Origin: a virus
Strand: one strand, 5' to 3'
DNA: 64,000 bases
IMG/VR virus record: IMGVR_UViG_3300031772_000002
Coordinates: 62,001-126,000 of that record
Shown here: positions 6,375 through 30,960 of the stretch, in pieces
How positions within the stretch are numbered: position 1 is the stretch's first letter
How the letters are laid out: every line of letters starts with the position of its first letter
Notes under the pieces: model-generated
The model's input: the letters and a program-made list of their open reading frames with translations, nothing else
Told to the model about the DNA's origin: nothing
Database searches by the model: none
Made by a program: the position numbers and the translations under genes

Positions 6375-6403
6375 TTTTTTTCCTTTGTTAATAGTTTTTA
6401 ATG

Positions 6404-6661: not shown

Positions 6662-6690
6662 AAATCTCCTTTTATAAATAAAAAATAGAT

Positions 6691-6815: not shown

Positions 6816-6866
6816 AATTATTATTTCAGTTATTTATTAATAATAACAAATTAATTTAAAAAATCT

Positions 6867-6928: not shown

Positions 6929-6954
6929 AATTTATTATTAATAAATAAACAATT

Positions 6955-7847: not shown

Positions 7848-7883
7848 TAAACCTCCGTTTAAATTAAAAAAAACTAATGATTT

Positions 7884-8066: not shown

Positions 8067-8098
8067 AATTGTTTTATTATCCTTGGTTAAATTTTTAA

Positions 8099-8353: not shown

Positions 8354-8385
8354 ATTATTAAAATCCTTTCTTAAAAAAAATAAAT

Positions 8386-8595: not shown

Positions 8596-8752
8596 TCTTG
8601 CTACACCTTCCATTTATCGTTTTTGATAAACAATCTTTTTGTTTATCACATGTAGGCATATTAATAGTTTCATTAATTAAAGAACAGTATTCGGCAGTGT
8701 CTTTATGGCGACATTTGTTGTATTGAATACATTTAACGTCAGTGCATTTCAT
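8573..8752 (-). CDS. small Cys-rich protein
   Basis: Start chosen at the ATG at 8752, seven bases after a GGAGG site; an earlier in-frame ATG (8767) has none. The 59-residue protein has eight Cys (MKCTDVKCIQYNKC, EYCSL, TCDKQKDC, RCSKNDKIC). The spacing could hold two zinc ions or a metal cluster. Family not recognised. Confidence 0.55.
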   Translation of the reverse strand: MKCTDVKCIQYNKCRHKDTAEYCSLINETINMPTCDKQKDCLSKTINGRCSKNDKICTI

Positions 8753-8776
8753 AAAAACCTCCAACATTAATTTTAT

Positions 8777-9112
8777 TTAAAAAGAATAATCATAATATTC
8801 ATTTCTATATCCTATTGAAAGATAGGAGCCACCTTTTGATTTCCAACCATTTTTAGTTAGTCTAAATATTTTTTTTTCATTATTTGTATTTACAAAATAT
8901 TTATATTCTTGAACTTCAGATATTCCGTTATTATCGGTACGAACAGAGTCATCGTATTGAAAAACAATTTTATTTTTTAAAACTTCAACTATAGTTCCGG
9001 CTCTTCTGTCCGTATAAAGACATTCGGTTGCCCCTGTATTGATTTCAATTTTTTTAGGAAATTTTTCAGTTAATATAACATTAACTAAAGATCCGGCATT
9101 TTTTAAATTCAT
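8777..9112 (-). CDS. conserved phage hypothetical protein
   Basis: The 111-residue product contains GATECLYTDRRAGTIVEV, VFQYDDSVRTDNNGISEVQ and YRNEYYDYSF at the C-terminus. The pattern GAT...TDR-x-AGT-x-V...D.-x-R.D-x-NG-x-SE-x-Q...(Y)YDYSF is a small beta-rich protein I associate with many tailed phages; its role is unknown. It has its own promoter at 9149-9176 and AGGAG before the start, and is the first gene of the leftward block. Confidence 0.65.
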   Translation of the reverse strand: MNLKNAGSLVNVILTEKFPKKIEINTGATECLYTDRRAGTIVEVLKNKIVFQYDDSVRTDNNGISEVQEYKYFVNTNNEKKIFRLTKNGWKSKGGSYLSIGYRNEYYDYSF

Positions 9113-9148
9113 TACATCTCCTTTAAAAAGTAAATAATGTATATATTA

Positions 9149-9176
9149 ATTATGTCATATTTTTTAAAAGAATAAC
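9149..9176 (-). promoter_or_regulatory. phage promoter, variant GTTATT-N13-TGACATAAT
   Basis: Minus strand GTTATT (9171-9176), 13 nt, then TGACATAAT (9149-9157), 37 bases before the ATG at 9112. Spacing is identical to the other four minus-strand sites of this type. A divergent plus-strand promoter for 9251 (TTGCAT, 17 nt, TATATT at about 9193-9221) is possible but weakly supported. Confidence 0.6.
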
Positions 9177-9250
9177 ATTATTATTAATATAATTGCATTT
9201 TTAATAGAAATCAATTATATTTCTATATAAAATCTATAAAAGGAGGAAGT

Positions 9251-10042
9251 GTGATTGAACAAAAACCAAAACCATCAGGTGTATTTTCAAAACCAAATAT
9301 TCAATTATCTAATTCTGAACAACCAAGTAATTTAAAATCAGAATCAGAAATAAAAAAAGTTGATTTTAAAGAACCGTCACTTAATAACGAAACAAGTAAA
9401 TCAATAATTAATAAAACCGATACGACATCTGAAGATAATAAAACTTATGACGATATCGAAAAAATAAATAAAAATTTCGATAAAGGTTTGGATGATTCGT
9501 TGTATGATGATATTGATGTTAATTCCGATGATCTTAAAATAGCGGAAAAAATTTTATTTGATGGATATGCCGAAACTGATGTTTCTATTGCTAATTTTCC
9601 TGATAATAAATTTACAATATGTTCTACAAGTGCAGAAGAGATAGATTTGATACAAGAAATAATATTTGATATTTGTAAAGAACATGAAACTAATGATGAT
9701 AGGATAGACATGCCTCAAACAAATATACGAGCTATGAATAATGCTTTATTTATAGCGATATCATATAGAGGAATGAATAAAAAAGAGTTATGTGAAAATC
9801 CTATAGAACATTTAAATACTATTAAAAAAGCTATTATTAAAGTTGATTCATTTATTAATGATGGCAATATAAAAGCTGCCAAAGAATTAAAAGATAGTTT
9901 AAAAAAATCATTACGAAATAGAGTTTCTAAAGTAAGAAGACTTTCTACCCCTGTCATTGATTTTATTTCTAATGAAAAAAATAAATTTGATAAAAAAATA
10001 TCTAAAATATTTTCAATGAAGAATATTATCCCAAAATCATAG
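9251..10042 (+). CDS. tail assembly chaperone, short form (zero-frame product)
   Basis: Starts with GTG after AGGAGG; no ATG alternative exists. The 263-residue protein has a polar, low-complexity N-terminus (about 1-85). A core follows with ILFDGYAETDVSI and FTICSTSAEEIDLIQEI, then helices ending RRLSTPVIDFISNEKNKFDK. The order (strand G-Y-x-x-x-V, F-T-I-x-T/S-x-S-A-E-E, then a long helical tail) and the place upstream of a tape-measure-like gene fit phage tail assembly chaperones. These bind the tape measure during tail building and are not in the virion. The stop TAG directly follows a perfect -1 slippery heptamer, which strongly favours this role. Sequence similarity alone would be weak evidence. 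Confidence 0.6.
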   Translation: MIEQKPKPSGVFSKPNIQLSNSEQPSNLKSESEIKKVDFKEPSLNNETSKSIINKTDTTSEDNKTYDDIEKINKNFDKGLDDSLYDDIDVNSDDLKIAEKILFDGYAETDVSIANFPDNKFTICSTSAEEIDLIQEIIFDICKEHETNDDRIDMPQTNIRAMNNALFIAISYRGMNKKELCENPIEHLNTIKKAIIKVDSFINDGNIKAAKELKDSLKKSLRNRVSKVRRLSTPVIDFISNEKNKFDKKISKIFSMKNIIPKS

Positions 10043-10332
10043 GGACCGGAACAGGCGCAGCTCGTGCATATTTTTTATTTAAAGGTTTAAAATTTGAATA
10101 TGATTCGATATTAGAAAGTATAGCTATATCAGTTTACTCAAGAGAAAAACAAATTCAATATATGGCTCCTTTATTTTCTATAGCCGGTCCAGATGATAAA
10201 ATGCGCCTAATGAATTCATATCATAGTTGTGTATTTCCTGAAGATAAATTTAACGATGAGTTGTATTTAAAGAAAGTCAAAAGCACAATGGAAAGATTGC
10301 GCAATATAGAATTTGTAGTTAAACCAATTTAA
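9251..10332 (+). CDS. tail assembly chaperone, long -1 frameshift product
   Basis: After codon 262 (AAA of CCCAAAA) a shift to -1 continues without stop for 98 codons, beginning IIGTGTGAARAYFLFKGL and ending RNIEFVVKPI at a TAA (10330-10332). The -1 frame has no ATG with a ribosome site, its codon use is normal, and no other gene occupies 10043-10332, so the extension is best explained as a frameshift product of about 360 residues. It would be the counterpart of lambda gpGT. The ratio of the two forms cannot be read from the sequence. Confidence 0.65.
10030..10036 (+). promoter_or_regulatory. programmed -1 ribosomal frameshift site CCCAAAA
   Basis: The heptamer is in the correct phase (C CCA AAA in the zero frame, codons 261-262), with the zero-frame stop TAG only one codon further (10040-10042). 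Downstream sequence from 10042 to 10070 is locally G+C-rich in an AT-rich region, consistent with a stimulatory structure, though I see only a short hairpin there. Confidence 0.75.
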
Positions 10333-16774: not shown

Positions 16775-19528
16775 ATGGCTAGTAAAAAAGGTTATAATTA
16801 TCAATTTAGATTATACATGGAAGGTGTTCATATTCCTTTTCATGGAGCAGTTATTTCATGCACTCCAAATGGGGTAGAAGCTAATATTAATTTGTGGGCA
16901 AATAAAGAATTGTTAGATCTTAAGCCCAAAACAGCAGTTCAAATTATTTATCGTGAATGGCACAAAAAACCTTCAGAAGCAAAGTGGCTTATAGCTTTTG
17001 ATGGATTTTTATCAAGTTTTTATAAAGTAGATCAGGCGGGTGAAGGTAATAATATATCATTAGTATGTCGTGATTTCAGAATGGATATACGTAGAGCTCC
17101 TGCAGCAATAGCATGGGAAGCTGACGATCCACTTACCCCTAAAACTTTTTATAATGAGATGGGATTGTTTCAAACATTTGTTATTAAGGGGGTTACAAAA
17201 TCAGGACAACCAGGAACGGATATACGTATTTATGATAGTGGAGATCTGGCGCCATTAAGTTACACTCTTAGTTTAATTGCAGGAAGCGCTTTTGGAGGAT
17301 CGTATGCAACTAAACATAATACCCATGTAAAAGGAGAATCGACATATCAAAAACAATTTACCGATGTTACCCCAACAATTCAACAACCGGCAACTAAAAC
17401 GGAAACTAAAAAAGATACTTCTGATGGTGTTGCTAATTGTGGATTTTTTTTAGATGCTATTGTTCGTGGATTATGGGTTGAAGCTGTCGGAGGAACATCT
17501 GTTGGTTCGTTTTTAAATAAACGAATCCGTCTTGATAAAAGATTTTTAATACCTGTCAATGTATCTGGTTATAACTTCTGGAAACGTCAATCTGCGGCAG
17601 TTAATATAGGATCCCATCTAATGGGCAATGCAAGATTTACAAGTCTTGAAGCGGCTATAATGAATCTTGCAGGCGTATTTTCAACGCGGGTTTATTCGTG
17701 CAATACGCCTTCATTAATTTCAATTGATAATGATAGTCCTGCTGTTGATTATATAATGGATAGAAGAGTAAGAAATTTTATTTTAGGTAAAGGATCAAAA
17801 GAGTTTGGTGGTAAATATATTCTTAATGAATCTATGTTATTGCCTCCTCTTGAATTTACCGCTCCTCCTAACTGTAATTTTATATTTCCTCCAATGTGTA
17901 ATCGTGTTGAATGGCAATATGATACTGATGTTGATATTACACGAGGGGTATATGAACAGATTAGTTTATTATCAACTCCTGGAAGTGACGGTCTTGCTGC
18001 GGCTAGAATTCAAGTTCCTAATGCTTTATTTAATATTATGAATAAAAATCCTAAAGATGAATTTAAAAGAAGAAAACCTCCTCTTACATTAGAAGAAAGG
18101 TATAAAGGTATTAATGTAGAATTTGGAAGTGTTTCAGTAGAGCTTGCATGTAATGATGCTTCTTCTATAATTCAAAAAAGATATGTAAGTGATAAGGATG
18201 GAAAAAAAATTGATTTAAAAATAGATGAATTGAAAAAATTAAAAGATAAAGTGGAAAGTGGAACATGGATTCCTAAAGATAAATCAGCAGTTGATTATAG
18301 TAAAGAAATAGAACAAAAACAAAAAGAAAAAAAAGAAATTAAATTATTAAAAAGTAAAGGTTTTGAGCCTTTAATGACCAATGCTCTTAAACATCATGCC
18401 GTATTAAAATTTCTTAATTCTAAATATGCAGGTAGAGTTGTTGTTGTTGATATGGCTTTTAATCCTTTTATTATGAGTGGGTTTCCTGGAGTTATTGTGT
18501 CGGATAATAATGAGTATGGAAAAAATTCATCAAAAACTATTCTTGGTATGGTACAAGTAGTTCGGCATACCATATCTATATCGAGCGCGGGAGGAGACGC
18601 TAATACGTCGGTAACAATGAATAACGCTCGTTTTGAAGACGAGCCTACAGATGTCGATTTATATGGATACCCATTGTATATTAAAGAAACAAATCCTGAA
18701 GACGCTATGATTGACATTAAAACATTCAAACACATAAATAGTAAAGGAGAATATGTAAAGCATTATGTTACAGAACCTAAAACCCCTGTGGAAGATGTAA
18801 AGTTTGAAACTAAAGATATTCCTAAAAGTAAAGCTTATGATCTTATTGATAAGTCAATTAATTCTGAAGGTTATAAGTATGCTAAAGACTTACTAAGCCT
18901 TACGTTACAAGATTATTTAAGTGGAAAAGTAAATCAAATTTATATAGATGAAACATATGAACCTACTCGTATATGTAAATTTTATCAGGATGTATTTCAA
19001 CACACTGAATTGCATTTTATGATAGGGCGTACTACTATTAAAGATGACTCTGGAAAAGATAAGGAAATTTACTTTACTTATGATTCTATTCATGAAGGAT
19101 TGGAAAAATTACGAATAAACAGACCTGATTTACTTTCAGACTATTCTGCATGCATGAGTTTTACCGAAAGAAATATTTGTTCAGCAGATGCATTTTTTCA
19201 AGGAATTATCGGCCTTTCAATAGAATCTTCAAAAGATTACAAAGGTAATATTTTTAAAGATGCTAATGATAATATTATAACTAAATATTTTTGTAATCAA
19301 TCTGATTTTATTCATCAGGATGTATACGAAAGATATTATGGAGTGTCAACTGATGATTATAATAATAAGAATTTTAATTTAAAAAAAGAAAATGGAGGAG
19401 ATATGACTGGTCCAGGCCAATTTAGCAGTATTCGTGAAAATTCTCCTGTTACTGCTTATATTAAAGAAAGAAGAGACGCTGTTGAAATATATCTTACTGA
19501 AGTATTAAAACGAGTGAGTTCAATATGA
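16775..19528 (+). CDS. baseplate hub-like structural protein
   Basis: The 917-residue protein begins MASKKGYNYQFRLYMEGVHI, followed by strand-rich sequence with FDGFLSSFYKV and ISLVCRDFRMDI. This is the kind of beta-barrel start seen in phage hub proteins (T4 gp27 / gpD-like), where an FxG strand is followed by an SL-x-x-R/D-F element. A charged linker (LKIDELKKLKDKVESG) and a large unknown C-terminal region follow. It lies between the tape measure and the wedge genes, where hubs are usually found. No lysozyme motif was seen. It overlaps the next gene by ATGA. Confidence 0.5.
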   Translation: MASKKGYNYQFRLYMEGVHIPFHGAVISCTPNGVEANINLWANKELLDLKPKTAVQIIYREWHKKPSEAKWLIAFDGFLSSFYKVDQAGEGNNISLVCRDFRMDIRRAPAAIAWEADDPLTPKTFYNEMGLFQTFVIKGVTKSGQPGTDIRIYDSGDLAPLSYTLSLIAGSAFGGSYATKHNTHVKGESTYQKQFTDVTPTIQQPATKTETKKDTSDGVANCGFFLDAIVRGLWVEAVGGTSVGSFLNKRIRLDKRFLIPVNVSGYNFWKRQSAAVNIGSHLMGNARFTSLEAAIMNLAGVFSTRVYSCNTPSLISIDNDSPAVDYIMDRRVRNFILGKGSKEFGGKYILNESMLLPPLEFTAPPNCNFIFPPMCNRVEWQYDTDVDITRGVYEQISLLSTPGSDGLAAARIQVPNALFNIMNKNPKDEFKRRKPPLTLEERYKGINVEFGSVSVELACNDASSIIQKRYVSDKDGKKIDLKIDELKKLKDKVESGTWIPKDKSAVDYSKEIEQKQKEKKEIKLLKSKGFEPLMTNALKHHAVLKFLNSKYAGRVVVVDMAFNPFIMSGFPGVIVSDNNEYGKNSSKTILGMVQVVRHTISISSAGGDANTSVTMNNARFEDEPTDVDLYGYPLYIKETNPEDAMIDIKTFKHINSKGEYVKHYVTEPKTPVEDVKFETKDIPKSKAYDLIDKSINSEGYKYAKDLLSLTLQDYLSGKVNQIYIDETYEPTRICKFYQDVFQHTELHFMIGRTTIKDDSGKDKEIYFTYDSIHEGLEKLRINRPDLLSDYSACMSFTERNICSADAFFQGIIGLSIESSKDYKGNIFKDANDNIITKYFCNQSDFIHQDVYERYYGVSTDDYNNKNFNLKKENGGDMTGPGQFSSIRENSPVTAYIKERRDAVEIYLTEVLKRVSSI

Positions 19529-20247
19529 AAACAAACACTACTATTGATAAAATTTATTTTAATTCTTTTTATGATGAACTTCAAAATATTGAAAAGAATG
19601 CTGGATTTGCAAAAGCATTAGGCACTGGGGCATTAATATGGGGAGGTATAGTAGGACCAGTGGCAACTCCTCAAATTATTGCTATGAAACAAAATGCACC
19701 AATTGTACGTAGTTTTGTAAATACAATGCAATCTGGTACTGTAAATGCTAGAAATATTATTAATAAATATGATCCTGGAACTATTCCATTAACATCTAAA
19801 AGCCAACTTGATACTGCTCAAATTGATAAGGCATCGAAAGCTATTGCAGGTTCTCAAATTAATAAATCAAATAAATTTACTAATACATTTTTTGTACCAG
19901 GAATAAAAGGAAACAGATATATTGTTTCACCAGAATTAACAGACTCAGCTATTATTGGTCACGAATTAGGTCATAGCAAGCATTATCAACAACTTTCTAA
20001 AAATAAAGATTTAAAAACAGGTTTAAAATTATTTAAAAAATATCCTACAGTTAATAGAGAAATAATGGCTAATCAAATGGCTCCAATTAAATCAAGTAAT
20101 TATAATAAGATAATGAATCCAGCATTTAAAACATATAAAAATATTAATACTGCAAACAAATTTACAAAAGGTATAGCTGGATCAGAATTTAGTTTAGGTT
20201 TAATTGCTTTAGGAAAAATGTTAATTAAGCGTAGAAAATTTAAATAA
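19525..20247 (+). CDS. zinc metallopeptidase-like protein with N-terminal SFxxEL tag
   Basis: The 240-residue protein contains IIGHELGHSKHYQ, with HExxH at residues 146-150, and a possible third ligand in NREIMANQMA (E179), as in gluzincin-type peptidases. Residues 10-27 (IYFNSFYDELQNIEKNAG) are a variant of the tag shared by several neighbours. Hydrophobic segments at about 31-50 and near the C-terminus (FSLGLIALGKMLI) suggest membrane contact. It may be a virion or ejected enzyme acting on host envelope proteins (inference). It overlaps the hub-like gene by ATGA and is two bases from the sigma-factor gene. Confidence 0.6.
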   Translation: MKTNTTIDKIYFNSFYDELQNIEKNAGFAKALGTGALIWGGIVGPVATPQIIAMKQNAPIVRSFVNTMQSGTVNARNIINKYDPGTIPLTSKSQLDTAQIDKASKAIAGSQINKSNKFTNTFFVPGIKGNRYIVSPELTDSAIIGHELGHSKHYQQLSKNKDLKTGLKLFKKYPTVNREIMANQMAPIKSSNYNKIMNPAFKTYKNINTANKFTKGIAGSEFSLGLIALGKMLIKRRKFK

Positions 20248-20249
20248 AT

Positions 20250-20942
20250 ATGACTATTGAACAAGATCAAATAATGGAATGGCAAAAAACTAAAGATCCA
20301 AAGATCTTTACTGAATTAATTATTAAATACAGACCGGTTGTTAATAAAGTTGTAAATCAATACAGAACAGTTGGTGTATCTTCTGAAACATTAAGAACCG
20401 AAGCCACTGCGCAACTTATTAAATCATTTAAAACATATAAACCATCATATGAAACGCAACCAATAACACATATATGGAATAATTTAAAAAAAGTTCAAAG
20501 AGTTGCTTCTGTTAGTTTAATGTCAGGGCATATACCTGAAAATAGAGCGTTAAAAAAATCAACGTTTACTATTGTTAAAGATAATTTAATTGATAAACTT
20601 GGATACGAACCAAGTACTATAGAAATGGCTGACGAACTTGGATGGAGTAAAAAAGAAGTTGCTCGAATGACAAGTGAACTTGGAGGAGAGGCTTCTTATT
20701 CAAAAATGAAATATGATTACTATGGGTCTGTGGTAAATCCTGAAAATCCAGACAAAGCCCTTGCCGATTATTTATATCAAGAACTTACCGGTAAAGATAG
20801 AGTTATATTTGAACATACATTTGGATATGCCGGAAAACCTATATTAAATAATAAAGAAATTGCTGATAAATTAAATGTAAATGAAATGTGGATTCATCGT
20901 GCAAAAACAAGATTGGCAGAAAAAATAAAATCATATCGTTGA
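20250..20942 (+). CDS. RNA polymerase sigma factor (sigma70 family)
   Basis: The 230-residue protein shows the sigma70 modular order. Region 2-like helices (about 15-85) include KYRPVVNKVVNQYRTVGVSS and THIWNNLKKV. A region 3-like helix pair (about 112-140) includes GYEPSTIEMADELGWSKKEV. Region 4 (about 175-228) has DRVIFEHTFGY and NNKEIADKLNVNEMWIHRAK, a helix-turn-helix for the -35 element. Phage sigma factors direct host polymerase to middle or late promoters. The recurring GTTATT/TGGTATAAC promoters in this window are natural candidate targets (inference). Position among virion genes rather than early genes is unusual. No ribosome site is visible, so translation may depend on the upstream gene. 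Confidence 0.8.
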   Translation: MTIEQDQIMEWQKTKDPKIFTELIIKYRPVVNKVVNQYRTVGVSSETLRTEATAQLIKSFKTYKPSYETQPITHIWNNLKKVQRVASVSLMSGHIPENRALKKSTFTIVKDNLIDKLGYEPSTIEMADELGWSKKEVARMTSELGGEASYSKMKYDYYGSVVNPENPDKALADYLYQELTGKDRVIFEHTFGYAGKPILNNKEIADKLNVNEMWIHRAKTRLAEKIKSYR

Positions 20943-20953
20943 AAGAATAAAAT

Positions 20954-21163
20954 ATGTTACAAGAAATTTATAATACTTCATTTATTAATGAACTTGAAAA
21001 AATTGCTGTATCACATGACATGAAGAGAATTATTTTACAAAGAAAATTAAATAGATATGTTGATGAACAGAAAAAAAATGTAAATGAACGTTTCTATAAA
21101 AAAGCAATTAGAAGATTTGTTATAAAAAGAATATTATCAGCATTGTCAAAAGTTAATTATTAG
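20954..21163 (+). CDS. small basic protein with SFxxELEKIA tag
   Basis: The 69-residue product begins MLQEIYNTSFINELEKIAVS, a clear copy of the N-terminal tag. The rest is a strongly basic helix (KRIILQRKLNRYVDEQKKN, ending IKRILSALSKVNY). Size, charge and tag resemble the DNA-associated internal proteins of T4-like virions, which are packaged through an N-terminal targeting sequence. That comparison is conceptual, not a homology claim. It lies between the sigma factor and the LigD-like gene. Confidence 0.6.
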   Translation: MLQEIYNTSFINELEKIAVSHDMKRIILQRKLNRYVDEQKKNVNERFYKKAIRRFVIKRILSALSKVNY

Positions 21164-21174
21164 GATAATTTATA

Positions 21175-22719
21175 ATGGCTAAAGAATTTGCATTAGGTCT
21201 TCCGTCAAAAACACGTTTTGATCCAATCGATCAGAAAGGTAAAACTCGTCTTGTTATTCAAGAACATGATGCAACTACCAAACATTACGATATGAGATTA
21301 AAAGATAAAGGGGTGGCTCATAGTTGGGTTATACGTTATCTTCCTGGAGAAAAGCAGAAAATTCTTGCAATACAACAACCAACACATTTGTCAAGATATA
21401 TGAATTTTGAAGGAACAATTCCTGAAGGATATGGAGCCGGAACTGTTAAAAAAATATACGATCAAAAAGTTAAAGTTCTTTCTGCTACAGATGATAAAAT
21501 TAAAATGACATTGCCTGAAGGCAATTTTACCATGATACGACCAAAAGGATTTAGTGGAAAACAATGGTTAATGATTAAAAATTCTAGTATAAAAAATCCT
21601 ATTACATCAAAACCTAAATATAAAGTTATTGCTGAACCTATTGATTATTCTGATGAAAATAAAATACTTCAGCCAAAGGTAGATGGGGCGCATAGTATTT
21701 TTGAATTAAAATCTAACGATGTAAATAATATTTACTCATATCGAATAAGTAAAAAAACTGGAAAGCCTATAGATCATACCGATCAACTTCCTCATTTAAG
21801 AGATTTAAAAATTCCTAAATCACTTGATGGAACTATATTGAGAGGTGATCTATACGGGAAAACAACAATCGGTCCATTGCCTGCCGAACAAATAAGTGGA
21901 ATTCTTAATTCAAGTGTTAATAAAAGTATTGAAAGGCAAAAACAACTCACTCGTCTTAAACCTTATATTTTTGATATTGTTAAATTTAAAGGCAAAGATG
22001 TTTCAAAAGAAGATTATTCAAATAAACTTAAAATGATGAAAGAAGTAGAATCTAAAATACCTGAAATGCGAGTTGCTGAAACTGCAACAACTCCACATGA
22101 AAAAAGAAGACTTTTTAATATGATAAAAACTCAAAGACATCCTGACACATCTGAAGGTGTAGTTGAATGGGATTTAAACGCTCCAGGAGGCTCACCAATG
22201 AAACAAAAATTCAGAGATACCCATGATGTCTATATTAAAAGTATATACCCTGCAATAGAACAGAAAAGCGGTAAAGAGAAAAAAGAAGCTGGTGGATTTG
22301 AATATAGTTTAACTCCTCGCGGTGAAATAGTTGGAAGTGTAGGAACAGGATTTACTCAAAAAAAAAGAAAAGATATGCTTGCACATCCTGAAAGTTATAT
22401 TGGAATGGTAGCACGAGTTAAATCTCCACATCAATATGAATCTGGTGCATTAAGAGCTCCGGCATTTTATACTATGGATATAGAAAAAAATTTAAATAAA
22501 GTTGCTAATATTAATAAAGGAGTTTTCATGAACAATTTATTTAATGAAAGTTTAGTTAAAGAATTTCAAAAAATAGCTATGTCTTCAAGATTCTATCAAG
22601 GCGTTTTAAAAAAAGTTAAATGGAATGATCCAAGAAGATCAACATTTGTTGGTGGATTATATAAATCTTTAGTTAAAGAAACTGGCGGATTGCCTAAAAA
22701 AGTTATTTTAAATAAATAA
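21175..22719 (+). CDS. LigD-like 3'-phosphoesterase / ATP-dependent DNA ligase fusion with C-terminal tag
   Basis: Residues 1-100 are a LigD-type phosphoesterase: QEHDATTKHYDMRLKDKG with H31, H37, D39 and R41, then THLSRYMNFEGTIPEGYGAG with H71, matching the metal and catalytic residues of that domain. Residues about 150-375 are an ATP-dependent ligase core: PKVDGAHS (motif I, Lys168), LRGDLYG (222-228), EGVVEWD (327-333) and MKQKFRD (motif V). An OB-type domain follows (about 375-445). There is no primase-polymerase domain. The activities would clean 3' ends and seal nicks. From Met452 the sequence NLFNESLVKEFQKIAMSS copies the shared tag. Context among virion genes suggests packaging and action on the entering genome (inference). 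Confidence 0.85.
   Translation: MAKEFALGLPSKTRFDPIDQKGKTRLVIQEHDATTKHYDMRLKDKGVAHSWVIRYLPGEKQKILAIQQPTHLSRYMNFEGTIPEGYGAGTVKKIYDQKVKVLSATDDKIKMTLPEGNFTMIRPKGFSGKQWLMIKNSSIKNPITSKPKYKVIAEPIDYSDENKILQPKVDGAHSIFELKSNDVNNIYSYRISKKTGKPIDHTDQLPHLRDLKIPKSLDGTILRGDLYGKTTIGPLPAEQISGILNSSVNKSIERQKQLTRLKPYIFDIVKFKGKDVSKEDYSNKLKMMKEVESKIPEMRVAETATTPHEKRRLFNMIKTQRHPDTSEGVVEWDLNAPGGSPMKQKFRDTHDVYIKSIYPAIEQKSGKEKKEAGGFEYSLTPRGEIVGSVGTGFTQKKRKDMLAHPESYIGMVARVKSPHQYESGALRAPAFYTMDIEKNLNKVANINKGVFMNNLFNESLVKEFQKIAMSSRFYQGVLKKVKWNDPRRSTFVGGLYKSLVKETGGLPKKVILNK
22528..22719 (+). other. possible internal start / fused small tagged protein
   Basis: Inside the ligase frame an ATG at 22528 has AAGGAG five bases upstream, a better site than that of the ligase itself. 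From it a 63-residue product MNNLFNESLVKEFQKIAMSS...KKVILNK would look like the other small tagged proteins nearby. Either the ligase fused to such a gene by loss of its stop, or both a full and a short form are made. Confidence 0.5.
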
Positions 22720-22725
22720 TTTATC

Positions 22726-22759
22726 ATATTATTAATTATATTTAATTAATAAACATTAG
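22726..22759 (+). repeat. duplicated leader sequence (copy 1; copy 2 at 23286-23319)
   Basis: A 34-base AT-rich stretch ending TAATAAACATTAG is repeated exactly at 23286-23319; the last part recurs at 23578-23590. Each copy lies just upstream of the ribosome site of a tagged small gene, so gene and leader were duplicated together. Confidence 0.75.
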
Positions 22760-22771
22760 GAAGGAGGTTGT

Positions 22772-23269
22772 ATGATGAAGATTGGCCAGGCATTAAAATT
22801 AGCAATGAGTAATACACAATATCTTGAAAAAATAGCTATGATTATGATTCCATTGACACAAGGACAGATTCGGGCTCCCTGGTTTAAAATAGATGATGAA
22901 ACCAGACAGAAGCTTGTAGATAGGGCAAAACCAATGCCGGTTAGACACAGTTTGATTGGTGGGGCTGTTGGTGTGGCTACCGGAGCTACGATTGGATCTC
23001 GGCTTGGTTGGCGTGGAGCCTTAATTGGTGGTACTAGTCTTGGATTGTTAGGCGGGGCTTTAGGATATGCAGGCGGCAAGCATCAGCAGGGTTTTGCATC
23101 AAAGTCGAAATATTATTCTCCATATCAAAGAACGCCCATAGGCGTTGGATTTGCGTCAAGCAAAGAATCTGTAAACAGGGCCGCTGCCAAATTGATTGAA
23201 AATATCAAAAGAAACGATTTAAAAGGATTTTCAGGAATTAGTTTTTCCAAGCAGATTAGCGACGAATAA
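22772..23269 (+). CDS. glycine-zipper membrane protein with LEKIA tag
   Basis: Two in-frame ATGs (22772, 22775) follow AGGAGG; the second has better spacing. The ~165-residue protein begins MKIGQALKLAMSNTQYLEKI, containing a shortened tag (QYLEKIA). It then has a central Gly/Ala-rich membrane region (about 55-100: LIGGAVGVATGATIGSRLGW, ALIGGTSLGLLGGALGYAGG) typical of glycine-zipper helices. The C-terminus is basic and polar. G+C is higher than in the neighbours. It may be ejected and inserted into the host membrane (inference). Confidence 0.6.
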   Translation: MMKIGQALKLAMSNTQYLEKIAMIMIPLTQGQIRAPWFKIDDETRQKLVDRAKPMPVRHSLIGGAVGVATGATIGSRLGWRGALIGGTSLGLLGGALGYAGGKHQQGFASKSKYYSPYQRTPIGVGFASSKESVNRAAAKLIENIKRNDLKGFSGISFSKQISDE

Positions 23270-23332
23270 TTTTTAGTGATTAATTATATTATTAATTATA
23301 TTTAATTAATAAACATTAGAAAGGATCTTATT

Positions 23333-23568
23333 ATGTTTCAAAAAATTTATAAAGATTCATTTAAAAATGAACTTGAAAAAATTGCTTTATCAACAGAAGG
23401 GGTTGAGGATAACCTTAGTACTGTATTAACCCCAGAACAACTAAATCAAACTGAAAAATTGGGGGTTAATACAGTACTGCTGCTGAAAAAAATCCATTTG
23501 GACCTTGTACGGCGGCATCCCTTGGATCTACAGCTTTATTAGCAGCTTCTATATTAGGTAGAAAATAA
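23333..23568 (+). pseudogene. decayed copy of the 23603-24016 gene
   Basis: The first 40 codons (MFQKIYKDSFKNELEKIALS, then TEGVEDNLSTVLTPEQL) match the start of the 23603 product. Sequence from about 23479 encodes AAEKNPFGPCTAASLGSTAL up to LGRK, matching its C-terminus but in another frame. About 75 middle codons are missing and the actual frame stops after 69 codons. At the junction a 17-base segment (23462-23478) is the exact reverse complement of 23417-23433, a template-switch scar. The 69-residue tagged peptide could still be made. Confidence 0.75.
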
Positions 23569-23602
23569 AATTTAAATAATAAACATTAGAAAGGATATCA
23601 TT

Positions 23603-24016
23603 ATGTTTCAAAAAATTTATGAAGATGCATTTAAAGATGAACTTGAAAAAATTGCTTTATCAACAGAAGGAGTTGAAGATAGACTTGGTGCTATATTAAC
23701 TCCAGAACAATTAATTCAAGCTGAAGAATTGATTGCAAGGGCTAAAGAAAAAAGTTTTATTTTAAGACATCCATGGCTTACTGGATTTGGAACTTTAGGC
23801 ATTGCTCCTGCAATTGCTAATGAAAACGCATATAATAAAATTAGTAGAACAATGATTAGAACAAATCCCGATATCAAAGAAATACAAAAAAACATAGTAG
23901 CCAAAGAGCATGAATTAGATCTTGCTGCTGAAAAAAATCCATTTGGACCTCGCACTGCGGCATCCCTTGGATCTACAGCTTTATTAGCAGCTTCTATTCT
24001 AGGCAATAGAAGATAA
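23603..24016 (+). CDS. tagged membrane-associated protein, intact paralogue
   Basis: The 137-residue protein begins MFQKIYEDAFKDELEKIALS, the most typical form of the shared tag. It continues with TEGVEDRLGAILTPEQLIQA, a hydrophobic segment (WLTGFGTLGIAPAIANENAY), a charged helix (KEIQKNIVAKEHELDLAAEK) and a second Ala/Leu hydrophobic end (AASLGSTALLAASILGNRR). An AGAAAGGAT ribosome site precedes it. The pseudogene at 23333-23568 is its partial duplicate. Function unknown; the tag and membrane-like segments fit an ejected protein. Confidence 0.65.
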   Translation: MFQKIYEDAFKDELEKIALSTEGVEDRLGAILTPEQLIQAEELIARAKEKSFILRHPWLTGFGTLGIAPAIANENAYNKISRTMIRTNPDIKEIQKNIVAKEHELDLAAEKNPFGPRTAASLGSTALLAASILGNRR

Positions 24017-24046
24017 AATTTAAATAAGGTAAGCAATAGGTATGTT

Positions 24047-24934
24047 ATGAATAAAAAAGCTTATAATATTGATCTTAAAGTAGGAGATGTGGTTCTTGGA
24101 GGTAAATTTAAGAATCAACGAATGATTGTTGAAAAATTTGGAACTAACGATATAGGACAGCCAACAATAAATGATAAAAGTTTGTTGGCTGTTCGTATTG
24201 AAAAAACTTTACCTAATAGTAAAAAAAGTTCTGAAACTTTAGCACAAGAATTAAATAATATAGCAGGAAATGAATCTGAAGTAAATAAAACTGCTTTTAT
24301 GAAATTTCCTAACTTTAAAAAATCTTTTCAAACTTTATATGGTTTAGGTCCTGAAGGATTTTCACGAAAAGCAATTGAATATGGAAAAACATTAGGAGAT
24401 ACACTAAATCAAAAAATTATTAAAAAAATAAAACCTGAAGCACATGCAAATTTAATAGAAGCTTTAAAAGGAATGAAAAATCCTGAGCTTGTTAAAATGT
24501 ATAAAGAGAATAAAATTTCACCTGATTTATTACGTAACTATTTAAATAAAAAAAGCATTGAATCTTCTGTATCAACATTTAAAGAATCAATTCCTGCATT
24601 GGCTATATCATTACCTGTTGGAGTTGGATCAATTTATGGTGGGAAAAAATTATTGGATAAATATCGTAAACAAAATCCTAAAATGGAAAAAATTTCATCA
24701 AATATTTTGTTTAAACCAAGTTTATGGAATGAATCTATTAAAAAAATACTTAAATCTACAGCAACAAATACTACATTAAATACTGAATCAACTTTAGATT
24801 TAGATAAATACTATAATAAAAATAAAAAACAAAATTTTAAAATTACAAAAACTTCGTCATTAAATTTAAATAATATTTATCGTAATTCATTATATGATGA
24901 ATTGACAAAAATGTCAAAATTAGGTAGAAAATAA
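24047..24934 (+). CDS. tagged protein with N-terminal KOW/SH3-like region and membrane segment
   Basis: The 295-residue protein begins MNKKAYNIDLKVGDVVLGGK, with F-KNQRMIVEKFG and GQPTINDKS. A 'VGD-V-x-x-GG-x-F-K-N-x-x-(V)-V...G-x-PT-(I/V)-N' pattern suggests a small beta-barrel also seen in other phage proteins. The middle is helical, with a hydrophobic stretch at about 185-205 (PALAISLPVGVGSIYGG). Near the C-terminus LNNIYRNSLYDELTKMSKLG is a clear tag copy, here C-terminal rather than N-terminal, ending LGRK like the pseudogene. Role unknown. Confidence 0.6.
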   Translation: MNKKAYNIDLKVGDVVLGGKFKNQRMIVEKFGTNDIGQPTINDKSLLAVRIEKTLPNSKKSSETLAQELNNIAGNESEVNKTAFMKFPNFKKSFQTLYGLGPEGFSRKAIEYGKTLGDTLNQKIIKKIKPEAHANLIEALKGMKNPELVKMYKENKISPDLLRNYLNKKSIESSVSTFKESIPALAISLPVGVGSIYGGKKLLDKYRKQNPKMEKISSNILFKPSLWNESIKKILKSTATNTTLNTESTLDLDKYYNKNKKQNFKITKTSSLNLNNIYRNSLYDELTKMSKLGRK

Positions 24935-24956
24935 AATTTAAAGAAAGGATGTTATT

Positions 24957-25372
24957 ATGTTTCAAAAAATTTATAAAGATGCATTTAAAGATGAGCTTGA
25001 AAAAATTGCTTTGTCAACTATTGGAGATATTAGTAGATCAATATTTGGTTATCATAATCTTAATGAAATATCTAAAAAAATTAATATTCCTAAAAAAATG
25101 TAGAATCTTATTATCATGGTTTACGCACTCCTAATAAATTATTATATTCCAATGAAGATGTAGAAAAAGATATTAAAGATATATGGCAAAAAAAAGAAAA
25201 ATATGATAAAATACGCAATGAGTCAGGATTATTTAATACTCAGCCTGGAAGCGATGAAGAATATAAAGTTATGAAAATGTATGGAAAGCAAATGGATAAT
25301 GATTTATCAGATTATGAGAATACTAAACAAAATTTATTAAAAAAATATGTAAATATTAAAAGTAAAAAGTAA
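24957..25372 (+). pseudogene. tagged gene interrupted by a frameshift in an A7 run
   Basis: The frame starts MFQKIYKDAFKDELEKIALS, with a good GAAAGGAT site, and ends at TAG (25101-25103) after 48 codons. One base added to the seven-A run at 25092-25098 would continue into KNVESYYHGLRTPNKLLYSN and a clean 90-codon stretch ending YVNIKSKK at 25370-25372. The downstream frame has phage-like codon use and no competing gene. Possible causes are a real frameshift mutation, slippage on the A-run giving some full product, or an assembly error. Confidence 0.6.
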
Positions 25373-25406
25373 AAAATAAAAAATAAAAATTATTATTGGA
25401 TATCAA

Positions 25407-27431
25407 ATGGCTCCTCCAAGAAAAGCTTGCGAAATTGTTTTAAACATAGAACTTGCGTATGCTAAATTATTAGATACTATACAAGATATTTTAAAAAAAA
25501 TACAAACCATTATTGATTTAAAATCAAAAATAAAATACGGATTTATAGATATTGCCGATGCAGTAGGAGCAGATATAGTAGCGGCTATTGGAAGCATAGC
25601 CGCATCTGTATCAAAATCTATATTAGGTTCTATTTCAGGAATGGCTGCTGCCATTCTTGAATCTATATTATCAAGTTTATTATCAATACTTTTATCTGCT
25701 CCAACCGCTATTTTCTCGTTTATTGCAATACCGCACAGCCAGGCAAGGCAGGCTGCTCATATTGAAAGAGAATGTATATTAAGAGCATTAGAGAATGTAC
25801 GGTTAATATTATCTATAATTTCAAAATGGACCGACGGATTTAGTGGTGGAAAATTTTATGAACAAATGAAAAATGCATTGCCTTACATATCTAAAGCTAT
25901 ACAAATTTCTGTTGAATTATTAATAGATCTTGATAAAGACGAAGCAATATTAAATGAATCCAAGTATAATGCTATGCTTGACAATATACAAATGGCTGAA
26001 GATATTACAAAACCAATGTCTATAATAGATTCAAAGTTCGGATTAACACGGGCAATGGAACAAAGAAGGGATGAAATTTATAATAAACTTACTATAGAGA
26101 TAAATAATACTTACAATAAAAAACGCAATAAACTTACTGAAGAATTTCAAAAACAGATGTTAGAGATTGGATCAGGTCCTGATTTAAATTACGCAATTAA
26201 AACAGAAAGCATTCGCAATAAATATTCATTTAATCGTTCTGTTATTGAAACGGAAAGAAAAGAAAAATTACAACTTGCTTCTTTACAAGCCACTACTCAG
26301 GCAAGTATAGATGGAAGCGCTTATGTTAAAGCAATTAAAGGATTAGGGGCTGAATTTGTATATGATATGGAAATATTACTTAAAACAATTAAAAGTTTAG
26401 CATCTAATATTTCTAAAGCATATGTTGAAAACAAAAGATGCCAACGTATGTGTCATGCGATATATACAATTAGAGAATTAATTTCTAATCTTATTAATGA
26501 ACTTATTTATTTAATAAGAAAAACAACTATTGGTTCGGTTAAAGTGGCTTCAAAATCAATAGACTCAGCTCAAACATTACTTGAGGTTGTTTATGATAAA
26601 TTTACTTCATGCATTGATAGATATGAAGATGTTACATCAAAAATAAGTGATATTGAAATGTCTTTAACTGTAGTGGCTGGAAATGAATTATTATTATCTT
26701 CAGAAGCAGTTCTTAACAGCACCATTACCAGGAGTTTAATAGATCATATTAATTCGGATGATGTATTAAAAGAGGCTAATAAAGATTTTGAAGAATTTTA
26801 TAAAAAACTTGAAGATATACCTGATTGGGATGGAAAGAAAAATGTATGGGCTGTACAAACTATTGGACTGGCAGCAAGCCCTTATGTTAAATTAACAACA
26901 GATTCGGCAACGTTAGTAATAAGAGTTCCGTCATTATCATTTTCTAATAGTCGTACTGATCGTCAGGAATTAATTCAATTCATGATGGATCTTCAAAGAA
27001 CATTCAATACTATTCTTGTTCATAATTTATATGTTACTGAAGTTCTTAATTCATATACTCCTTATATGTCCTCAGAAATTGGAAATTTAATGAGAATACT
27101 TTCTAACGCAGGACTACTTGAAACTTTTGCTAATGGATTAAGTATTGTGGCGACTATAAGTGATATAACTAAAAACATTATTAAAAGTGGTATAGATTCT
27201 TTTGCAGTTACATCTGAAAATTGTATGTCATCATATCCAGATTTATATAAAAGTCCTGATGCAGCAAGGGCTTCAGCTTTATTTAAATATAATATGCCTG
27301 CCAGAACAGCTGATTTAAGTTTTCTTAAAAAATGTGAAGATAGAGATTATGATCGAATTGGAGTTCAAACATATATTAAAAATATTAATTTTAATAATAT
27401 GATTAATGAAGAAGATTTGGTTGAAAGTTAA
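25407..27431 (+). CDS. large helical tail/baseplate structural protein
   Basis: The 674-residue protein begins MAPPRKACEIVLNIELAYAK and is mainly helical. It has a hydrophobic Ala/Ile/Ser-rich region at about 50-110 (AIGSIAASVSKSILGSISGM), a charged coiled segment (about 215-260) and further helices. No family was recognised. Position directly before the gp25-like and gp6/J-like genes, and lack of any tag, favour a structural role in the baseplate or tail tip. Confidence 0.5.
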   Translation: MAPPRKACEIVLNIELAYAKLLDTIQDILKKIQTIIDLKSKIKYGFIDIADAVGADIVAAIGSIAASVSKSILGSISGMAAAILESILSSLLSILLSAPTAIFSFIAIPHSQARQAAHIERECILRALENVRLILSIISKWTDGFSGGKFYEQMKNALPYISKAIQISVELLIDLDKDEAILNESKYNAMLDNIQMAEDITKPMSIIDSKFGLTRAMEQRRDEIYNKLTIEINNTYNKKRNKLTEEFQKQMLEIGSGPDLNYAIKTESIRNKYSFNRSVIETERKEKLQLASLQATTQASIDGSAYVKAIKGLGAEFVYDMEILLKTIKSLASNISKAYVENKRCQRMCHAIYTIRELISNLINELIYLIRKTTIGSVKVASKSIDSAQTLLEVVYDKFTSCIDRYEDVTSKISDIEMSLTVVAGNELLLSSEAVLNSTITRSLIDHINSDDVLKEANKDFEEFYKKLEDIPDWDGKKNVWAVQTIGLAASPYVKLTTDSATLVIRVPSLSFSNSRTDRQELIQFMMDLQRTFNTILVHNLYVTEVLNSYTPYMSSEIGNLMRILSNAGLLETFANGLSIVATISDITKNIIKSGIDSFAVTSENCMSSYPDLYKSPDAARASALFKYNMPARTADLSFLKKCEDRDYDRIGVQTYIKNINFNNMINEEDLVES

Positions 27432-27473
27432 AATAGAATGGATTTATTCATATTTTAGAACTATTTTATAATT

Positions 27474-27947
27474 ATGGATATTGACTTCTCTACTATTATA
27501 AATTCAAGTTCTTCTACAACACCATCTTCTGGTTTTGAAATTTCTATATTAGACAATCCTAAAGGTGTAGAAGGAAACAGGGCATTATTAAATAGATTTG
27601 AAATAACATTTTTAACTCAATTGAAAAGTTTTTTAATTAATGATAAAATTGTATTAGATACTTTTGGAGGAGATGCTGATAAATTTATTAATCGCCCCTC
27701 TGTTTTAAACAATATTCAAAGTATTGCTGCGGCTATATCAGTATCAATAGATCAAACTATTAAATCAATGAAAAGCGATGAGCCTGAAAAAATACCAGAT
27801 ACTGAAAAAATACTTAACGCAAATTTATTAAGTATTGATGTTGTAGAAGGAGTAGTAGTGGCACAAATTGAAGTCATTCCAGTTAATGTTGAACCGTATA
27901 GTAATTTAATATTTAATCTTCCGATTATTAATAGAACGGAATTTTAA
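27474..27947 (+). CDS. putative baseplate wedge protein (gp25/W-like position)
   Basis: The 157-residue protein has a Ser/Thr-rich start. It then has RALLNRFEITFLTQLKSFL and LDTFGGDADKFINRPSVLNN, with helices and closing strands LSIDVVEGVVVAQIEVIPVN. Size, a long-helix/FGG core and place three bases before the gp6/J-like gene agree with gp25/gpW wedge proteins, which nucleate the sheath end. The family's usual EPR-like motif is not evident, so this remains a position-based call. Confidence 0.45.
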   Translation: MDIDFSTIINSSSSTTPSSGFEISILDNPKGVEGNRALLNRFEITFLTQLKSFLINDKIVLDTFGGDADKFINRPSVLNNIQSIAAAISVSIDQTIKSMKSDEPEKIPDTEKILNANLLSIDVVEGVVVAQIEVIPVNVEPYSNLIFNLPIINRTEF

Positions 27948-27949
27948 TC

Positions 27950-30949
27950 ATGTTTAATTTTTGGTATTTCTTAAGAAAAAAATGGTCGGAATATTCAGAG
28001 GCTCGTGGTCAAAAGGGAACATTGATTGACGATCTTGCTATTAAACCAACCGGATTGGTAATGTCTGATTTTTATAATTTACTAGTTAATCAAAGAAAAA
28101 TAAATAATATAAGTCAATGGAAAGGAATGTCAGATTCGGATCTTGACGCTTTTGGTGGTAAGTTTTTTATTCCAAGAATTAATGGTGGGTTTGCGTTTGG
28201 TATAGCAAGAATATGGTTTAATTCAAAAATTGATATTATCATTACTGAAAATGCCAGGTTTGTATCCACCAATGGACTTCAATATGTTATTACTCAACCT
28301 GGGTATATTAGTAAAAATTCTTTCAAAATATCTACCGATAGAATAGCTTTATTTTATATAGATGTTCCTATTACCGCAGCCGCTAAAGGGGTTGGATATA
28401 ATATTAATTCTGGAGAAATTTCTCAACTTATCAATATTGATTTCGAATATCATTCAGTTACAAATTTAAATCCTTTAATTGATGGTTCTAAATATGAATC
28501 AAATCAAGAATATTATAATAGATTGTATTATTCAATTAATGATCGTGGAATGATGAATCAAAAAAGTTTAAATGTATTCCTTCCTCAATTTTTTCCAAAT
28601 ATAAAAGCTATGTATATATCCGGTTCCGGTGATAGATATATGAATAGAGATTTAATAGCAGGATTTGATAGCTCGGAACAATTTAATAAAGTTGATTATC
28701 TTGGAAAAACAAATGGTGACAATATTGTAAAACATATAGCTTTTTATGGTATATTTCCACCAAATGCAGGAAGTGTAATGCATGATAGATATTGGGGTCC
28801 CCACTCTGATATATCTGCCTATGAATATCCTTTAACTATAGACCAGGCGGTTAGTGATTTTAATCCTTCAGATAACAATGTTTTTAAAAGTGATCCTGCA
28901 TTTTTAGGTTTTCCATTAGATCAAGAGTTTACAGATGAAATGTATCGAGGGATTTATTTTAATGATTATAAACGTTTCTTTGAACATAAAACAGGATATC
29001 TTTTTAATATTGATGATGAAGAAATAAGTTATGATAAAATATTACCAGGTGACAATTGGATATATGGAGCCTGTGGACGAAGCAATAGATATGTTGGAAA
29101 TCTTCAAGAAGGTTTAGGGGCTATTGATGTTATAAATATGTCAACTAATATTATAAATTTATGTGGAGGGTCATCTGAATCATTATCAATAAGTAAAGAC
29201 ATTTTAAAAAGAACTGGAATTAAATTAACTGGCTTATTTACATTTCCAGAACCTGATGAAGAAGGAGTTCTTAATAGCAATCTGCAAATGATGGTTGGGG
29301 GTGTAAATGAAACAAGTATTGTTGACGGATACACTGGAATAGGCTTTGGAATCAGAATGATTGACGCTTATCAACCTGATGATATTAATGCTTTAAATGC
29401 AGTTATTTATTTTGCTCATTCTGAAAAGTACGGAACAACCCAAATATACGCCACTGATGATGATATTAATGATCATATATCAATATCTAATATGGGGGCA
29501 TTAGCTGAAAAACAATTTAAAATACAACCAGGAGTCGAATATAGTTTTGAATTTATTATATATGATGATCTTCATTTAACATTATTAATAAATAAAACCT
29601 CACAACTTGTTGGTTTAGATCCAGATGAGCATGAAAATATTTTACATTTTGAACTTCCTAAAAAGATTTTAAATATATTCTCTGATTCAAGTAAAGGTGG
29701 TATACTTAGTATTGACTCTACCCGTTATGGAACTATGATGAAAATTACTTTAGATACAAAATCTTTATTAGCTTCAAAAATGTGGTCAGTAATTAGTTTA
29801 AAAGCGTTTGATATTAATCCTGAACGAGCAATGGCATTATTTGCTATAAATGTTTTAAATATTGAATCTCCCATTACAATATATACGCGAGCGTATGGAA
29901 ATAGTGCTGTTGGGAATTCTCAATCAGATGGATATCGTGCATTAATATGGGATAAAGAATCACAAACTGTAACTTCAATCAATTCTGAATTAAATCGTGG
30001 AGGATGGATAGAGGCTAATGGAATTTCAGACGTTAGCAGTTCAAAAAAAACATTAACTGGATTATTAAGCCATACTATAAATAATATTGATAGATACGTT
30101 GTTGAAAATAGATTTGGTAAAAATATTTTCTTATTATTTATTACGTCAGGAGCATCGAAGCCTACTATTCGATATAATGGTGATTTACGAGATAATATTC
30201 AATCTTTATTAAGAGTTGATTATATAAAGATTGAAAGTGAAAATTTATCTATGTATCATGCAAACAATAAAGCGGATATATATGTAGCAACTTTAAGTAA
30301 TTTAGAAGAATACAAATCAGTAATTACTACATTAAGAAAAAATTCAAGTGATACATATTTTGAAATGAATTCAGAAAATTGTTCAATGCCTATATTAGAA
30401 ATAATATCAATAACTACAGGAGAAACTTTTGATTTAAATAATATTATTTCTGAAAGTGAATATACAATAGTCGATGCTGATTTAAATTTTATGGGGTCTT
30501 CATTGGAAGTAAAAAGAATATCATTAAATGAATCCAATTCCAATACAATTACTGTTGAATATAAATCTTATCCTGAAATTGAAAATATACAGAATTATTT
30601 TGATGATTCAATATATAAAAAAATATATGGTAATATTTTAGTTAAACATAAATATCCATGCGATTTAAATATATCATTATTTTTTACAGGAATAGGAACG
30701 GAAGATAATATTATTAGTGAAGTAAAAAGTTATGTTGATAACAATATTGATGGAATATTTATTATTAAAAATTTAATAAGTAATTTATATAATAAAGGTC
30801 TTGTTAATAATATTAAAGAACCTGTTACTATTTTATATAGTAAATTTGATGATGAATTAAATATTGAAACTGGTTCATTTACTGATCAATTAGAAATACG
30901 TTCTATTGATTTTTTTCGTATTATTAATATTTCAGCTCAAAGGTTGTAA
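27950..30949 (+). CDS. baseplate wedge protein, gp6 / J-like
   Basis: The 999-residue protein has the J-like order in its first 260 residues. FAFGIARIWFN and ITENARFVSTNGLQYVI come first, then IDVPITAAAKGVGYNINSGE with a VTNL strand. ESNQEYYNRLYYSINDRGMM and YISGSGDRYMNRDLI follow. This matches baseplate J/gp6 proteins, which form the iris-like inner wedge ring. The long C-terminal half carries additional beta-rich domains not recognised. It follows the gp25-like gene as in many myoviruses and precedes the fibre genes. Confidence 0.75.
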   Translation: MFNFWYFLRKKWSEYSEARGQKGTLIDDLAIKPTGLVMSDFYNLLVNQRKINNISQWKGMSDSDLDAFGGKFFIPRINGGFAFGIARIWFNSKIDIIITENARFVSTNGLQYVITQPGYISKNSFKISTDRIALFYIDVPITAAAKGVGYNINSGEISQLINIDFEYHSVTNLNPLIDGSKYESNQEYYNRLYYSINDRGMMNQKSLNVFLPQFFPNIKAMYISGSGDRYMNRDLIAGFDSSEQFNKVDYLGKTNGDNIVKHIAFYGIFPPNAGSVMHDRYWGPHSDISAYEYPLTIDQAVSDFNPSDNNVFKSDPAFLGFPLDQEFTDEMYRGIYFNDYKRFFEHKTGYLFNIDDEEISYDKILPGDNWIYGACGRSNRYVGNLQEGLGAIDVINMSTNIINLCGGSSESLSISKDILKRTGIKLTGLFTFPEPDEEGVLNSNLQMMVGGVNETSIVDGYTGIGFGIRMIDAYQPDDINALNAVIYFAHSEKYGTTQIYATDDDINDHISISNMGALAEKQFKIQPGVEYSFEFIIYDDLHLTLLINKTSQLVGLDPDEHENILHFELPKKILNIFSDSSKGGILSIDSTRYGTMMKITLDTKSLLASKMWSVISLKAFDINPERAMALFAINVLNIESPITIYTRAYGNSAVGNSQSDGYRALIWDKESQTVTSINSELNRGGWIEANGISDVSSSKKTLTGLLSHTINNIDRYVVENRFGKNIFLLFITSGASKPTIRYNGDLRDNIQSLLRVDYIKIESENLSMYHANNKADIYVATLSNLEEYKSVITTLRKNSSDTYFEMNSENCSMPILEIISITTGETFDLNNIISESEYTIVDADLNFMGSSLEVKRISLNESNSNTITVEYKSYPEIENIQNYFDDSIYKKIYGNILVKHKYPCDLNISLFFTGIGTEDNIISEVKSYVDNNIDGIFIIKNLISNLYNKGLVNNIKEPVTILYSKFDDELNIETGSFTDQLEIRSIDFFRIINISAQRL

Positions 30950-30960
30950 CATTAAAGAAG

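Follow-up and report, generated by a model that had tools for sequence, protein, structure and literature searches.

Why should a series of unrelated phage proteins carry one and the same short peptide? The question is raised by a stretch of 64,000 nucleotides (the window), corresponding to positions 62001-126000 of the 164,446-base (~164 kb) IMG/VR virus record IMGVR_UViG_3300031772_000002, here referred to as G000. The peptide has 15 residues, with the consensus I-x-x-x-[AS]-F-x-[DN]-E-[LM]-x-K-[IL]-[AS], and is probably a short amphipathic helix. It occurs on varied and unrelated protein bodies, together with a co-occurring protease, and shares with this protease and with a scaffold-like protein a common K-x-A code, the latter protein also containing an internal copy of the tag. 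With a probability of roughly 0.8, it serves as a portable tag for capsid targeting and processing, which copies a helix of the scaffold and has the recognition sequence of the head protease at its end. The helix that the tag would mimic belongs to the internal head scaffold of the phage itself, and tagged proteins would co-assemble with the scaffold core in the prohead, while the end of the tag would represent the recognition sequence hydrophobic-x-K-x-[A/S] of the maturation protease. This protease would remove its own N-terminus and digest the scaffold; the same enzyme would trim the tags off, and the cargo would be left loose in the head with the DNA.

The tag is found well beyond the window. 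When exact DNA patterns for the peptide were counted in IMG/VR, F-x-DELEKIA was present in 110 stretches and F-x-DELQKIA in 74, compared with 10 for the reversed peptide and four for a permuted peptide. Sites of the form F..EL..KIA can be found in all of the 46 large tag contigs checked (1-11 per contig, almost always on one strand), and the motif read backwards gave no match in 50 records. Chance or composition as the origin of the tag is ruled out by the reversed and permuted motif controls. Grouped by their bodies, 131 tagged proteins make up 103 families. Most tags lie no more than ~15 residues from a Met, as a short N-terminal peptide on otherwise unrelated proteins: 64 of 85 copies are located within the first 30 residues of the predicted open reading frame (ORF), many of the remaining 21 have an internal Met upstream at the usual distance, and only one is situated in the last 40 residues. 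The residue preceding the F of the tag is A, S, or G in 69 of 74 tagged proteins. Recognisable cargo bodies comprise SF2 helicases, NUDIX, acetyltransferase (GNAT), glyoxalase, peptidases, glycine zipper, and a match to DarB-like antirestriction proteins; in the helicases, the zinc peptidase, and the glyoxalase/GNAT protein, the domain begins downstream of the tag. According to the original prediction, the motif should be missing from cellular homologues, and this holds as far as the tagged enzymes with database homologues are concerned, in which the homologous domain begins past the tag. A tag matched with a relaxed motif on the terminase L208:3218-4900 was taken as chance, and a few other matches to this relaxed motif are probably of the same kind.

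Which enzyme could process such a tag? The gene at 30323-32167 of G000 (full-genome coordinates, outside the window) encodes a head maturation protease (phrog_18299, 1.5e-9), with homologues in Salmonella phage Arash and Vibrio phage D69 and, more distantly, in the annotated prohead protease of Rhodococcus phage E3. This family is encoded in 39 of the 46 large tag contigs, and 79 loci selected by the protease alone (some of them redundant) contained 93 tags, distributed over 45 loci, and no reversed motif. Within the tag contigs, 36 tags lie less than 12 kb from the protease gene versus 20.6 expected at random positions, N-terminal tags are most frequent at the gene immediately upstream of it (11/76), and tagged genes adjoin it in G000, G028, and G049. 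The structure predicted for the protease has a mean predicted local distance difference test (pLDDT) score of 80.5. Residues H109 and S160 are invariant in 46 sequences and are putatively catalytic. A profile of the protease compared with PDB sequences yielded chance matches only, and searching genome contigs with the protease for a host returned only three metagenome-assembled genome contigs, none with the tag. In G008, G016, G021, and G026, the reading frame of the protease reaches 1341-1679 aa through large in-frame inserts, possibly inteins.

The second question is whether the tag and the protease share a code. Relative to shuffles, [ED]KxA is enriched 6.2-fold (z 20.9) in the scaffold region, namely the genes between the protease and the capsid protein, and 5.4-fold (z 13.3) in the protease, with values of 3.3-fold in the genes upstream and 2.0-fold in those past the capsid gene. 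In 50 of 57 distinct proteases, hydrophobic-x-K-x-[AS] is present near the N-terminus, ahead of the protease domain (e.g., LNKTAAS, FEKTAAP, and MEKAAAF). K28 and A30 are kept in at least 90% of 46 sequences, and in the predicted structure K28-x-A30 is located at the junction of the low-confidence N-terminus and the folded domain. K-x-[AS] is taken as the putative cut site, with cleavage probably occurring after A/S. The acidic gene directly downstream of the protease contains an internal tag, e.g., GRIMARGFFDEFQKLA or ARSFVDELQKIA. At positions +1 and +2 after the protease, 25 of 105 proteins match a regular expression for the tag, compared with 0.14 expected from shuffles, a few of them being short N-terminally tagged proteins at +2; a cargo-trained matrix gave 21 mid-protein matches in these 105 proteins and few elsewhere. 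In a relative of G000, G004 (174,649 bases), the internal scaffold-like copy reads GQLIARSFQATLEKDA, and inspection by eye gave GEKIAYAFQNTLAKQA at the aligned position in G000. From its place, its charge, and its K-x-A sites, the acidic gene can be considered a candidate scaffold, and an internal tag in such a protein suggests that the tag packages proteins by imitating a scaffold helix. Elsewhere in G000 (130882-131559, outside the window), a 225-aa protein with a homologue in G004 has six [EDQN]K.[AS] sites versus 0.9 expected, and may likewise be a core protein that the protease cuts. The interval separating the capsid gene from the scaffold genes (G000 34298-39754, outside the window) holds a series of genes that, as judged from sequence only, look like methyltransferases and glycosyltransferases.

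The same data can be read in terms of a docking helix only, which would bind the scaffold or the shell and package the cargo but would stay uncut, with K-I-A belonging to the binding face. The internal scaffold copy does have F-x-D-E-L ahead of K-x-A, a short protease motif would not need the conserved F, D/E, and L, and cleavage is so far a prediction. However, K-x-A without F..EL repeats through the scaffold and precedes the protease domain, as cut sites would. Moreover, distant isolates lacking the F..EL part are still enriched in K-x-A in their scaffold-like genes, as in D69 156012 (10 sites versus 2.9 expected) and Arash gp220 and gp223. Docking without cleavage is thus rated unlikely.

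With regard to the locus where the tag was first noticed, all eight peptides claimed there were found in the window sequence. Tags were scored with a matrix of 16 columns trained on 69 tags, all from contigs other than G000, and the null consisted of 1,206 reversed or shuffled G000 proteins, with a highest score of 12.4. The features of this cassette, in window coordinates, are as follows.

19525-20247, plus strand: tagged protein of 240 aa with a metallopeptidase-like HELGH motif and no family match (tag score 14.5)
19552-19602, plus strand: tag IYFNSFYDELQNIEKNA, ending EKNA, in the 19525 gene
20250-20942, plus strand: sigma factor without tag, within the cassette, homologous to Arash gp10
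20954-21163, plus strand: small basic protein of 69 aa with tag (tag score 27.7)
20954-21007, plus strand: tag MLQEIYNTSFINELEKIA, in the 20954 gene
21175-22719, plus strand: LigD-type 3'-phosphoesterase and ATP-dependent ligase protein of 514 aa (LigD_N 1.2e-14; relatives)
22549-22578, plus strand: internal tag SLVKEFQKIA on the C-terminal side of the ligase, residue 459/514 (GFVDELEKIA at the matching place of the G004 ligase)
22772-23269, plus strand: glycine-zipper-like membrane protein of 165 aa, core motif only
22817-22837, plus strand: core motif QYLEKIA, in the 22772 gene
23333-23542, plus strand: tagged protein, tandem copy of 23603-24016 with an internal deletion (tag score 23.5)
23333-23386, plus strand: tag MFQKIYKDSFKNELEKIA (score 23.5)
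23603-24016, plus strand: tagged protein of 137 aa (tag score 32.7)
23603-23656, plus strand: tag MFQKIYEDAFKDELEKIA (score 32.7)
24047-24934, plus strand: protein of 295 aa with a weak C-terminal tag and five [EDQN]K.[AS] sites versus 1.3 expected
24887-24919, plus strand: weak C-terminal tag SLYDELTKMSK, in the 24047 gene
24957-25103, plus strand: tagged ORF of 48 aa, another frame carrying the coding on to ~25370
24957-25010, plus strand: tag MFQKIYKDAFKDELEKIA, near-identical to the 23603 tag

The scores of the 19525, 20954, 23333, and 23603 tags all exceed the null maximum. The 24957 tag, which is one residue apart from that of 23603, has no matrix score because it was displaced by an overlapping ORF. 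The 21175, 22772 (core only), and 24047 copies are weak on their own; that of the 21175 ligase is backed by the G004 ligase, where the same tag is found at the matching place with a score of 29.8. The peptides are real, but 23333 arose as a tandem duplicate of 23603, and the reading frame of 24957 shifts past codon ~48, so the eight peptides are not eight independent cases. The frame change in the tagged gene at 24957-25370 follows an A-run near 25095 and is either a real frameshift or a sequencing error. In the tail region of the window (36096-38642), a protein with RCC1-type repeats (regulator of chromosome condensation families) is encoded, and two adjacent genes on the minus strand (window 3124-4966) have prepilin-like starts (MKNNKGFTLIELMVSLTIAM and MNNKGSTLIFFTVFSAM), which is unusual for a phage.

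Does the place of the cassette point to the tail instead of the head? The tagged genes were originally placed between tape-measure and baseplate genes, and the cassette is indeed in the tail hub/baseplate region, its neighbours matching Arash structural proteins and the 27950 gene matching a baseplate wedge family; the same tag, however, is also found beside the head protease gene. The cassette (window 16775-27950) lies between tail hub and baseplate genes in G000, with a matching position in G004, as would be expected of a tag loading the tail tube or the baseplate in the manner of the leader peptides of contractile injection systems. This is nevertheless very improbable, considering that the head-protease neighbours of G000, G028, and G049 bear the same tag, that N-terminal tags peak just before the protease, and that internal copies are present in the scaffold-like gene. 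In addition, the ligase gene of the tail cassette in G000 and G004 is found beside the terminase in L008-L010. A tail-tube leader is accordingly disfavoured by the tags on head genes and by the scaffold copies.

Is the tag confined to this cassette? Searching the rest of the genome and its relatives revealed further tagged genes, so it is not. In G000, three consecutive genes directly upstream of the head protease gene (29383-30320, full-genome coordinates) carry it, a minus-strand gene (19622-20659) has an internal tag, and the protease and a 2138-aa protein gave marginal internal matches (12.7 and 13.2, against the null maximum of 12.4); beyond these and the cassette, nothing in the matrix scan of G000 passes the null. 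The original prediction would have been contradicted by tags occurring equally in early genes. No significant tag was found in the minus-strand blocks at 49-74 and 136-164 kb of G000, which agrees with it insofar as these blocks, as is assumed, are early. In G004, the corresponding tail-side cassette contains 13 significant tags, most of the genes that bear them having no relation to the G000 genes, and further tags are present in the head region. Among ten G004 tags, DNA identity averages 67% and third codon positions account for 330 of the 526 differences, while the DNA flanking them on either side shows 27-29% identity, near chance; selection therefore acts on the peptide. That the tag has no function, reflecting either 5' ends duplicated among related genes or the composition of coiled coils, retains hardly any probability in view of the 103 body families, the scrambled and reversed controls, and the mostly synonymous tag divergence between dissimilar flanks, although the tag DNA of 23333, 23603, and 24957 is 94-96% identical. 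Recent duplication as the sole cause is also ruled out by the unrelated bodies and the mostly synonymous differences, but does hold for 23333/23603.

The LigD-like ligase gene (window 21175-22719) varies in place and structure among relatives, adjoining the terminase in L008-L010. The ligase gene of G004 (L018-L019; G004 21389-23668) is split, with tagged mini-ORFs between its parts, and would provide an example of tag gain by fusion or insertion into another gene. In the L008/L009 ligase (L008:10001-11878), a P-loop-like domain is inserted between two parts, with EKTS and AKHA sites flanking. An internal Met is present upstream of the ligase tag in G000 and in one piece of the G004 gene. Internal ligase tags may represent fused tagged genes, or cut sites dividing a packaged polyprotein.

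Has such a tag been described before? In T4, capsid-targeting sequence (CTS) peptides on IPI, IPII, IPIII, and Alt are removed by gp21, core packing and trimming working in this way, and the likeness lies in a short N-terminal peptide on unrelated internal proteins, which ends in a protease cut motif (PMC9026906). In both cases the motif is repeated in core proteins and a cognate prohead protease, here possibly of the gp21 type, is encoded in the same genome. Unlike the L/I-x-E of T4, the cut code here would be hydrophobic-x-K-x-A, the tag ending in K-[IL]-[AS] with the conserved E inside the helix. The present tag also differs in having a full internal copy in a scaffold-like protein, in its more numerous and more varied cargoes, including enzymes, and in being internal in some proteins. 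The CTS sequence itself we take to have no likeness to the tag. Since sequence and cut code differ, the tag does not belong to the T4 family in terms of sequence, yet it would work like the T4 CTS, and the best reading is that of a functional analogue, unrelated in sequence and with another cleavage code. The earlier proposal of a protease-processed packaging signal like that of T4 is in this respect partly supported, by the co-occurring prohead protease, by K-x-A in the tag, the scaffold, and the protease N-terminus, and by the internal scaffold-like copy.

The cargo-loading peptides of encapsulins are likewise short and direct unrelated enzymes into an HK97-fold shell; they are classically C-terminal and are not proteolysed. 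In contrast, the tag is not a C-terminal one, and encapsulins involve no phage scaffold. SPN3US and phiKZ are, similarly, large phages with many processed head and ejection proteins and several cut sites per propeptide (gp245 / gp175; PMC10052503), but SPN3US uses an AXE code, and the propeptides are mostly 111-254 residues long with no common short tag (PMC10052503). In P1, internal head proteins such as DarA have their N-terminus removed by the prohead protease Pro and are co-ejected, with no common short tag described (PMC12810830); among the proteins tagged here, one has a match in a DarB-like family. By analogy with T4 and P1, the ejection of the cassette proteins, as originally proposed, is plausible. 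No previously published tag was found in literature text searches for ELEKIA, capsid-targeting, or prohead protease.

What can be learned from isolates? The closest are Salmonella phage Arash and Vibrio phages D69, D148, and D181, which have a homologous protease, capsid protein, and tail proteins, as well as K-x-A in the protease N-terminus and scaffold-like genes. They differ in having no F-x-D-E-L-x-K-I-A in the regions read, Arash gp221 and D69 154028 showing a loose version of it at best. A search for virion mass spectrometry of any tag-bearing phage found none. In Arash particles, mass spectrometry detected the sigma factor gp10, the RNA polymerase subunits gp206 and gp216, and the helicase gp217 in quantity. 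The G000 homologues are the cassette sigma factor for gp10, the gene at 2332-10257 (outside the window), encoding a 2641-aa polymerase, for gp216, and the helicase gene at 23502-25415 for gp217, other phages bearing tagged versions of the gp217-type helicase. The 2641-aa protein matches Arash gp216 as well as a large D69 protein; by its match to gp216, G000 probably carries a virion RNA polymerase, to which the cassette sigma factor may belong. For the tagged proteins, scaffold binding, the exact bond cleaved, presence in the virion, and delivery into the host cell are predictions from these comparisons.

Several points weigh against the tag being a capsid-targeting and processing signal. Two of four control records have the protease family yet no F..EL..KIA site, and the protease therefore does not require the tag, its family being wider. 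A Foldseek search with the protease model was weak, T4 gp21 (5jbl_A) being the best match by probability (prob 0.89, TMt 0.43, E 0.075) and an unrelated MlaD chain having the lowest E. C-terminal or internal tags are ill-suited to simple removal of an N-terminal propeptide. Within the cassette, the sigma factor (20250) bears no tag, showing that a gene can lie among tagged ones without carrying the peptide. No tag-bearing phage was found among 50,697 GenBank phage records with a 23-residue tblastn query and the protease, such a short-query search being insensitive. Finally, the Arash virion list includes likely contaminants, e.g., ribonucleotide reductase, as noted by its authors.

What, then, would a capsid-targeting and processing tag mean for these phages? 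Its bearers are a widespread, undescribed group of large environmental phages, in which the tag, found on dozens of unrelated proteins, probably serves as an address label for head loading. There is a somewhat better than even chance that this uncultivated lineage runs a general protein delivery system, in which any gene gaining the helix would be packed and then released by the protease, with a portable tag and dozens of swappable effectors per head that would be brought into every newly infected host. The tag would also be a compact means of loading foreign enzymes into large phage heads. As a sequence rule, it would allow proteins packaged in the head to be recognised directly from metagenomic phage genomes, in which almost all genes are unknown; about 100 protein families are predicted to be cargo of the virion, and many of these may act during the first few minutes of an infection. 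The solution adopted by T4, a short tag ending in the protease's own cut site, would thus have a counterpart that is very different in sequence, and could be built by copying the scaffold.

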